In this document: positions 49,066-51,151 of the stretch, piece after piece
Numbering within the stretch: position 1 is the stretch's first letter
Layout: each line of letters starts with the position of its first letter
Assembly: GCF_025770725.1 (NCBI RefSeq)
Contig: NZ_JANZKZ010000001.1
Coordinates: 620,001-684,000 of the forward strand
Reading direction: 5' to 3'
From: Sulfurospirillum oryzae
Lineage (GTDB): Bacteria > Campylobacterota > Campylobacteria > Campylobacterales > Sulfurospirillaceae
DNA length: 64,000 bases
Made by a program: the position numbers and the translations under genes
Notes under the pieces: model-generated
What the model saw: the letters and a program-made list of their open reading frames with translations, nothing else
Told to the model about the DNA's origin: nothing
Databases searched by the model: none

Positions 49066-50097
49066 TTATACCGTCATTATGCTTATCATTGCCTCTTGGC
49101 TACCGTGTCCTAGCAAAGAACGAAGCTTTTTTGCATGGTTGAAAAAGGCTTCTTTATCCATGGTTTCATACGCTTGAAGCAAATTATCAACCGTTACTTT
49201 TTCTTGCAAAAACTCTTGGTGCAAAGGCTCCATTTTTTCAAAATCAAAAAGAAGATTGGCAAGACCTACATGTTTGAGTTTGACAAACTGCTGTGCAATC
49301 CAATAATCAAATGCTTTAGCCTTATACGCCAGCACAAAAGGCACACCCACAAGTGCTGCCTCAAGTGTCGCAGTACCTGAACAGACAAAGGCAAATTCAC
49401 TTTTTTCAAATGCTTCGTAGGTGTTACGACAAATTTTAAAGTCATGTATATCGCCATAAATCTCTGCAATTTCACGATAACTAAAATGAGGAGGAATCAC
49501 CAAAAGCTTTTCTTTGCCTTCTATTTTAGAAGCGACCTCTTTGTAAATGGGGAAAAGACTGCGTATTTCACTTTTGCGACTCCCTGGTAAAAAGGCTATC
49601 ACGCCCGTTTCGTCGGCTCTGAGTTTAAACAGTGGAATCTCATCTAAAAGCGGATGCCCCACGTATGTTGCTTTGGTGTAAAAGTTTTGCTCAAATGGCA
49701 AAATAGACGCTAGCACATCACAATATTTTTCAACAACAGCCACCCGCTTAGGTTTCCACGCCCACACTTGAGGCAAAATATAGTAGATAATTTCGACATT
49801 CGGATTGATCGTCTTAATCGCTTTTGCCAAAGGGATATTGAACGCAGGCGAATCGATGAGCAAGACTTTGTCTACAAAAAAACTCATACGCGCCATCGTC
49901 TTGATCGCTTTTTTGGCTTTGCGAATTTTAGGCAAAGCATCTAAAAATCCCATAATCGAAAAAGCTTTGCTTGGTAGTAACGGCTTCCCAAAACGCTCAT
50001 CAAAAATACCATACATCTCACACTGCTCTAAGGCGTTTAAAATAGGCTCTAAGTGTAAATTTGCTGATGGTTCTAGGGCGGAAACAAGTAATTTCAA
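49066..50097 (-). CDS. lpxB: Lipid A disaccharide synthase
   Basis: 343 aa from a TTG at 50097, giving MKLLVSALEPSANLHL, the normal LpxB start; AAAAGG lies eight bases upstream. A longer frame to 50139 adds residues that belong to a repeat-like leader. Further: IDSPAFNIPLAK, YYILPQVWAWKPKR, VGHPLLDE, FLPGSRKSEI and SGTATLEAALVGVPFVLAYK. Joins lipid X and UDP-diacylglucosamine. A hairpin terminator follows. Confidence 0.93.
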   Translation of the reverse strand: MKLLVSALEPSANLHLEPILNALEQCEMYGIFDERFGKPLLPSKAFSIMGFLDALPKIRKAKKAIKTMARMSFFVDKVLLIDSPAFNIPLAKAIKTINPNVEIIYYILPQVWAWKPKRVAVVEKYCDVLASILPFEQNFYTKATYVGHPLLDEIPLFKLRADETGVIAFLPGSRKSEIRSLFPIYKEVASKIEGKEKLLVIPPHFSYREIAEIYGDIHDFKICRNTYEAFEKSEFAFVCSGTATLEAALVGVPFVLAYKAKAFDYWIAQQFVKLKHVGLANLLFDFEKMEPLHQEFLQEKVTVDNLLQAYETMDKEAFFNHAKKLRSLLGHGSQEAMISIMTV

Positions 50098-50153
50098 AAT
50101 TGTACCTTTTAAACTTTCTTCAAAACGAAGTCTATACAAAAATCTCTTAAAAA

Positions 50154-50319
50154 TAGACTTTCTTTATAGCCCTTGAAAAGATAAAGAGTTTGTTTAGAGT
50201 GCGTTAATTTTTGAAACTAAAAATTGAGTCATAGCCGAAGCTATGGCGATATTTTTAGTTTTAAAAAGTGATGTGCTATAAGCGATACTCTGTTTTCAAG
50301 GGGTTATAAAAGAAGTCTA
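50154..50319. repeat. 166-bp imperfect palindrome upstream of surE (possible mobile repeat or structured RNA)
   Basis: The outer arms (50154-50179 and 50293-50319) match as inverted repeats with only a few differences (TAGACTT and CCCTTGAAAA blocks). Similarity continues inward through AGAGT/ACTCT to AAACTAAAAAT and ATTTTTAGTTT, ending in CATAGC-CGAA-GCTATG. The entire element folds on itself as one long hairpin. AAGTCTAT also occurs at 50128-50135, pairing with 50153-50160. It lies between divergent lpxB and surE. Confidence 0.75.
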
Positions 50320-50336
50320 ACATAAGCCTCTTTCGT

Positions 50337-50342
50337 TATAAT
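50337..50342 (+). promoter_or_regulatory. Putative -10 box for surE
   Basis: TATAAT 24 bases before the surE ATG and immediately beyond the long palindrome. Confidence 0.55.
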
Positions 50343-50365: not shown

Positions 50366-51151
50366 ATGAAACGTATTTTAATTACCAATGATGACGGCTT
50401 TGAAAGTGCAGGACTTCACGCCCTTGCACGCGCACTTCGTCCTTTGGGGCAAGTAACCATCGTAGCACCTACTTCTGAGAAATCCGCATGTGGACATTCG
50501 CTTACCCTTACACGGCCACTTCGCTTTGTTGCCATTGAAGACGATTTTTTCAAACTCGATGATGGCACGCCCACAGACTGCATCTATCTCTCGCTCAACG
50601 CTCTTTTTGAGGGTGATAGTAAACCTGATTTAGTGGTGAGCGGCATCAATAAAGGCTCAAATTTAGGTGAAGACATCACCTACAGTGGCACAGCGAGTGC
50701 TGCGATGGAAGCGGCCATTCACGGTGTTCCTGCCATCGCTATCTCCCAAGTCTATACGGGTGGGGTTCAAAACATTGAATTAACCCATGGCTATGATTTG
50801 GCGGAAAAAACTGTGTATGATCTTGCCAAACGTATTTTAGAAGGTACTTTCCCCCTTGGCGAGCGTCGCTTTTTAAATGTCAACATTCCTCCACTTAGCC
50901 CTGATGAGTGCAAAGGCTACAAAATCACCCGTGCAGGCTACCGAATGTATGGCAATGACGCGCATTTGCATCGCAACCCAAGAGGTGAAGAGTACTACTG
51001 GCTCGGCGTTCACACGCTCGAGTGGAGAAAAAGTGAAAAAGCAGACTGTGACCTAAGCGCCATCGATGAAGGCTACATCTCCATTACGCCTATAAAACTC
51101 GACATGACTGCACACGATGAACTTGAAAATTTAAAACAATGGATACAATAA
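50366..51151 (+). CDS. surE: 5'/3'-nucleotidase SurE
   Basis: 261 aa. ILITNDDGFES (metal Asp pair D9-D10), APTSEKSACGHSLTL, DGTPTDCIYL and SGINKGSNLGEDITYSGTASAAMEA are SurE motifs. Hydrolyses nucleoside monophosphates and short polyphosphate, linked to stationary-phase survival. Its stop overlaps the next ATG as TAATG. Confidence 0.96.
   Translation: MKRILITNDDGFESAGLHALARALRPLGQVTIVAPTSEKSACGHSLTLTRPLRFVAIEDDFFKLDDGTPTDCIYLSLNALFEGDSKPDLVVSGINKGSNLGEDITYSGTASAAMEAAIHGVPAIAISQVYTGGVQNIELTHGYDLAEKTVYDLAKRILEGTFPLGERRFLNVNIPPLSPDECKGYKITRAGYRMYGNDAHLHRNPRGEEYYWLGVHTLEWRKSEKADCDLSAIDEGYISITPIKLDMTAHDELENLKQWIQ

Follow-up and report, generated by a model that had tools for sequence, protein, structure and literature searches.

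A palindromic, probably IS5-mobilised MITE with a conserved interior hairpin between the lpxB-like and surE-like genes of Sulfurospirillum oryzae

The lpxB-surE locus

We analysed a stretch of 64,000 nucleotides of Sulfurospirillum oryzae (GCF_025770725.1, contig NZ_JANZKZ010000001.1, positions 620,001-684,000 of the forward strand), hereafter the window, in which two divergent open reading frames that we take to be lpxB and surE flank a long palindrome (Table 1). The segment 50128-50319 folds with a minimum free energy of -74.6 kcal/mol (z = -10.75), compared with a mean of -33.6 and a standard deviation of 3.8 for 200 dinucleotide shuffles, none of which is as good. An earlier note on this DNA had described positions 50154-50319 as folding almost completely upon themselves, with arms alike over a long distance and ending in a CGAA tetraloop. 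Both observations are borne out, as the stem runs over about 70 bases and closes on a CGAA loop at 50236-50239. The 166 bases proposed there overshoot slightly: the element proper measures 164 bp, its ends being fixed by empty sites and by copies whose flanks are unrelated. The element contains no open reading frame of 50 or more residues in the ORF list, and on its minus strand the hairpin is followed by TTTTT. The 3-bp target duplication of the window copy, AAT/AAC, is decayed.

Table 1. Features of the lpxB-surE region, in window coordinates. TIR, terminal inverted repeat.
Feature	Position	Strand	Basis or remark
lpxB-like gene	49066..50097	-	ORF list; TTG start at 50097 inferred
26-bp block outside the element, probable lpxB promoter	50128..50153	-	Nearly invariant in 18 genomes
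Left target-site duplication AAT	50152..50154		Among 46 independent loci, 24 show exact 3-bp duplications
Palindromic non-autonomous element, full-length copy, 164 bp	50155..50318		11 full copies in the host genome
Left TIR AGACTTTCTTTATAGCCC	50155..50172	+	Family consensus AGACTTCTTTCATAACCC; the 907-bp IS of G006 has these 18 nt at its ends
Hairpin tip GAGTCATAGC-CGAA-GCTATGGCGAT	50226..50250	+	Tandem G.A mismatch; common to elements of the phylum with other TIRs
Right TIR, 18 bp	50301..50318	-	Copies with unrelated flanks, empty sites, IS comparison
Right target-site duplication AAC	50319..50321		One mismatch to AAT
Probable surE -10 box TATAAT	50337..50342	+	Kept in nearly all relatives
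surE-like gene	50366..51151	+	ORF list

The motif AAGTCTA at 50128, previously placed in an outer hairpin, turned out to lie outside the element, in a 26-bp block (AAGTCTATACAAAAATCTCTTAAAAA) that is almost unchanged in 18 Sulfurospirillum-type genomes whether the insert is present or absent. The minus strand of this block carries a -10-like TATAGA about 30 bases ahead of the inferred lpxB start, and judging from its sequence the block is probably the lpxB promoter. Its invariance upstream of lpxB exceeds what an ordinary promoter needs. As the earlier note had supposed, the setting is a divergent promoter region, with the insert between the predicted lpxB and surE promoters. Since both predicted promoters point away from it, neither transcript should contain the insert, and the suggestion of a structured RNA gains no support at this locus. 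Most likely the insertion has no effect here, or it moves the two promoters slightly apart.

G001, the closest of the relatives sampled, has an uninterrupted lpxB-surE site, and so have G002, G006, G008, G009, G011 and G015-G018. Seven relatives from several lineages carry a hairpin of about 33 bp, with the ends AGACTYC...GAAGTCT or weaker ones, at the exact position of the insert (loci L288, L289, L290, L292, L297, L300 and L301). On the tree of the flanking sequences, these carriers interleave with empty sites. Either the short hairpins are what is left of an old insertion after shrinkage and repeated losses, or insertions favour this site, or recombination has moved alleles.

Copies and target sites

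Searching the same genome for further copies, as had been proposed, gave 11 full-length matches to the 166-bp query, the ten other than the window copy being 83-94% identical to it, as well as half copies and short forms of 31-51 bp that retain both ends. Dozens of further copies reside in relatives within the genus, and 61 full-length copies could be aligned across it; the palindrome is thus neither single in its genome nor absent from relatives, two of the three conditions that the earlier note had named together as fatal to its proposal. When orthologous copies were collapsed into 46 independent loci, 24 loci had exact 3-bp duplications, compared with a mean of 10.4 and a maximum of 19 after shuffling. 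The duplications are of the ANT type (AAT in 11 and ATT in 10 of the 24 exact cases), and controls for 4- and 5-bp duplications gave 0.

Long flanks are available for 28 copies, whose neighbouring genes are divergent in 10 cases, tandem in 16 and convergent in 2; the copies occur in both orientations relative to their neighbours (10 versus 6 for the tandem ones). Most of the 28 are fully between predicted genes and the remainder abut or slightly overlap the end of an open reading frame; the copy at L029 overlaps a predicted one by 125 bases. No match to the element was found in plasmid and phage collections and IMG/VR, so that it is not evidently phage- or plasmid-borne. One site holds a full-length element in six species (L009, L128, L137, L139, L140 and L143), the oldest resident copy seen, for which domestication is possible.

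A candidate autonomous partner

The relative G006 contains four near-identical 907-bp elements, whose AGACTTCTTTCATAACCC ends agree with the consensus ends of the palindrome at 18 of 18 nucleotides and whose target duplication is AAT in both copies examined. They encode HTH_Tnp_4 and DDE_Tnp_4/DDE_Tnp_1 domains in two overlapping frames, with PF13613, PF13359 and PF01609 scoring above the cut-off. The best NCBIfam model is IS5, at 107.5 bits against a cut-off of 140, a shortfall probably owing to the split of the frame in two. From these sequence features, the 907-bp element is an IS5-type insertion sequence and the likely autonomous partner of the 164-bp element. We regard the insertion sequence with AGACATCTTGCAAAACT ends (G004, G005, G007, G011 and G022) as a relative and not as the direct partner.

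The G006 insertion sequence was not found in the host genome by DNA match, by the DDE_Tnp_1 profile or by AGACTTCTTTCATAACCC-type end pairs at the distance of an insertion sequence, and a protein search of the host with the G006 transposase, run without a positive control, gave no match. Current mobility in the host is doubtful because no partner is detectable there, and the window palindrome looks like a MITE that has outlived its transposase. In other species, decayed end fragments of the G006-type insertion sequence with about 85% identity are present at L158 (G013:C8:357029-357154) and L164 (G020:C66).

Covariation and strand asymmetry

In the 61 full copies, 98.3% of the cells of the consensus structure are paired. 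The compensatory changes between copies for which the earlier note had suggested looking are plentiful: both sides changed in 20 pairs (10.0 in shuffles) and in 105 cells (24.6 in shuffles), although the copies are related and the counts not independent. Slid controls gave at most 7 pairs and 14 cells. The TIRs co-vary as well, e.g., CTTGCAT with ATGCAAG. No double compensatory change was seen within ten orthologous groups, which implies that compensating changes build up in lineages that transpose, or slowly, rather than fast at one site.

In every one of the 61 copies the plus strand folds more stably than the complementary strand (mean -75 versus -52 kcal/mol), because mismatches on the plus strand are G.U rather than A.C. 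The numbers of G.U and A.C are 14 versus 4 in orthologues and 7 versus 11 in private changes, and the bias may be an inheritance from one founder. At L143 (G007:C1:1923407-1923780), the central 45 bp or so are inverted relative to five orthologous copies, a signature of hairpin events or template switching. The tip loops of L122, L132 and L134 are altered.

A wider family in Campylobacterota

The tip of the hairpin, GAGTCATAGC-YRWA-GCTATGGCGA, is shared with larger double-hairpin elements, so that two length classes, of 161-167 and 264-269 bp, surround it. When 84,980 species were scanned for exact matches to the tip, all the records returned were Campylobacterota by title or identification: Sulfurospirillum, Sulfurimonas, Arcobacter and MAGs of Helicobacteraceae and Campylobacteraceae, with one MAG titled Proteobacteria (CTSoil_042) counted as a genus member. 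The tip served as the search key, so part of its invariance follows from the way in which the elements were found. At least three mutually unrelated TIR types, AGACTTCTTNCATAACC, GGGCACCTCTAAAAA and ACTGACCTTACGCAC, bound these elements, the identical tip being found in 264-269-bp elements that end in GGGCACCTCTAAAAA and in ACTGACCTTACGCAC. The long class is composed of outer arms, a first hairpin (hairpin 1) that bears the shared tip, a mini-hairpin, usually CCC-NNN-GGG, and a second hairpin. The alignment of hairpin 1 has 165 doubly changed cells versus 54.7; all its sequences retain the tandem G.A mismatch that adjoins the tip stem.

Of 397 genomes of the phylum, 49, from 18 genera, contain a match to a covariance model of hairpin 1 at E <= 1e-5. 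Most of the twelve model loci inspected have matching outer inverted repeats, nearly all with the spacing of the long class (L272 is the sole one with short-class spacing), and several depart from the search key at the tip. Contig G168:C1 (f6, g55) bears about 20 copies with 265-266 bp between GGGCACCTCTAATAA ends; eleven of the G168 copies have identical model scores, a recent amplification. An insertion sequence with GGGCACCTCTAATAA ends was not found for the G168 element. Patterns of GGGCACCTCTAAAAA and ACTGACCTTACGCAC end pairs in about ten genomes gave only the spacing of the element or a shorter one among the matches listed, and no partner insertion sequence. Open-access literature on MITEs in Sulfurospirillum, Sulfurimonas, Arcobacter and Campylobacterota yielded no paper describing the family.

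Origin and maintenance of the palindrome

The window palindrome is very probably a palindromic MITE that was moved by an IS5-type transposase in trans and has kept its interior hairpin. The earlier note had thought of a MITE or other mobile repeat, and the evidence supports a MITE: the copies are numerous, short, non-coding and dispersed, their ends are exact and, in consensus, identical to those of an IS5-type element in a relative, their 3-bp duplications have the length of that partner's, empty sites exist, and the arms co-vary. An IS5-type DDE transposase acting in trans would cut the 164-bp element at AGACTT...AAGTCT and insert it into 3-bp ANT targets, the host copy having inserted where the lpxB and surE promoters diverge. 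The G006 insertion sequence or a close relative, now absent from the host, would have supplied the transposase. Selection on the folded strand, aided by copying between the arms within the palindrome, would keep the interior hairpin; the basis of such selection may be RNA, single-stranded DNA or a DNA-binding protein. Four observations stand against this account: no transposition event was observed, the host has no detectable partner, orthologous copies at one site are without double compensatory change, and the hairpins of about 33 bp at the same position in distant species are more than a single random insertion could produce.

If the arms matched merely through a recent inverted duplication or through mutational correction of the palindrome by template switching, the fold would have no function. 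The inverted centre of L143 and the altered tip loops fit such events, but many compensating positions lie between paralogues, the tandem G.A and several G.U pairs have survived where correction would have made perfect pairs, and the tip is conserved over elements with different arms; we regard this origin as unlikely. Strong covariation, the better fold of the plus strand in every copy and the invariant tandem G.A by the tip stem, which recalls RNA internal-loop motifs, would all suit an element that is primarily a structured RNA, for instance a small RNA or an mRNA-processing hairpin, repeated and kept since its transcript is useful to the host or to the element. That reading is nevertheless rather improbable, with copies in both orientations relative to neighbouring genes, the window insert outside both predicted transcripts, no Rfam family at the gathering score (only sub-threshold chance matches to a plant miRNA and others), and a strand bias that could be the founder's, given the private changes. 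The kept, one-strand-biased fold may still act as RNA or single-stranded DNA at other loci.

An intrinsic bidirectional terminator or a boundary element of the host is scarcely credible, despite the very stable hairpin with TTTTT next to it on the minus strand, as convergent genes flank only 2 of 28 copies and divergent ones 10, the window insert receives transcription from no gene, many relatives lack the element, and target duplications mark it as an insertion.

Among known systems, the palindromic MITE resembles IS5-family MITEs in being short, non-coding, intergenic and dispersed, with IS5-type TIRs and a short target duplication, but it differs from them in being almost wholly one hairpin, whose tip is common to elements with unrelated TIRs. 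Ordinary MITE families are defined by their ends. REP/BIME sequences with their RAYT consist of 20-40-nt REP hairpins with a GTAG/GGAG box and depend on a Y1 (HUH) transposase; an element of 164 bp with a 3-bp duplication and a DDE partner does not belong with them. ERIC, IRU and Rickettsia palindromic elements (RPE) are known from other phyla. The window family shares with them the character of intergenic or inserted palindromic repeats, while its clear 3-bp duplication and IS5-type partner set it apart, going by their descriptions. In the part of the literature available to us, ERIC/IRU and RPE are palindromes of about 100-150 bp (PMC10969869), and Coxiella QMITEs and similar elements are MITEs that vary in size and have truncated, REP-like derivatives (PMC5896051, PMC10969869). 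The size variants and shortened derivatives are a likeness to our family, whereas a phylum-wide internal hairpin with interchangeable TIRs goes unmentioned in the portion of the review that we could consult.

What we read as new is that the conserved part of the family across the phylum is the interior hairpin and not the TIRs. Non-autonomous elements are usually bound to one transposase through their ends, and their interior drifts. Because the conserved tip is common to larger elements with other TIRs, the sequences suggest that one old hairpin lineage took on the ends of several transposases. More tentatively, the family may be a selfish hairpin lineage defined by its interior, whose tip and tandem G.A would be recognised as RNA or single-stranded DNA, and which would repeatedly gain the TIRs of resident transposases at fixed lengths (about 165 and 267 bp) throughout the phylum. 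Paired arms offer a route for joint TIR change and could permit a switch of transposase. With ends exchanged and the interior kept, it becomes testable whether the folded tip aids spread, tolerance or the binding of a host factor.

Draft contigs start or stop mid-hairpin at L036, L037, L154, L155 and L156. Since assemblies break at the hairpin, copy counts in drafts are low estimates. Hairpins of this family coincide with draft contig ends in G016 and G020, and they could pass for terminators or small RNAs.
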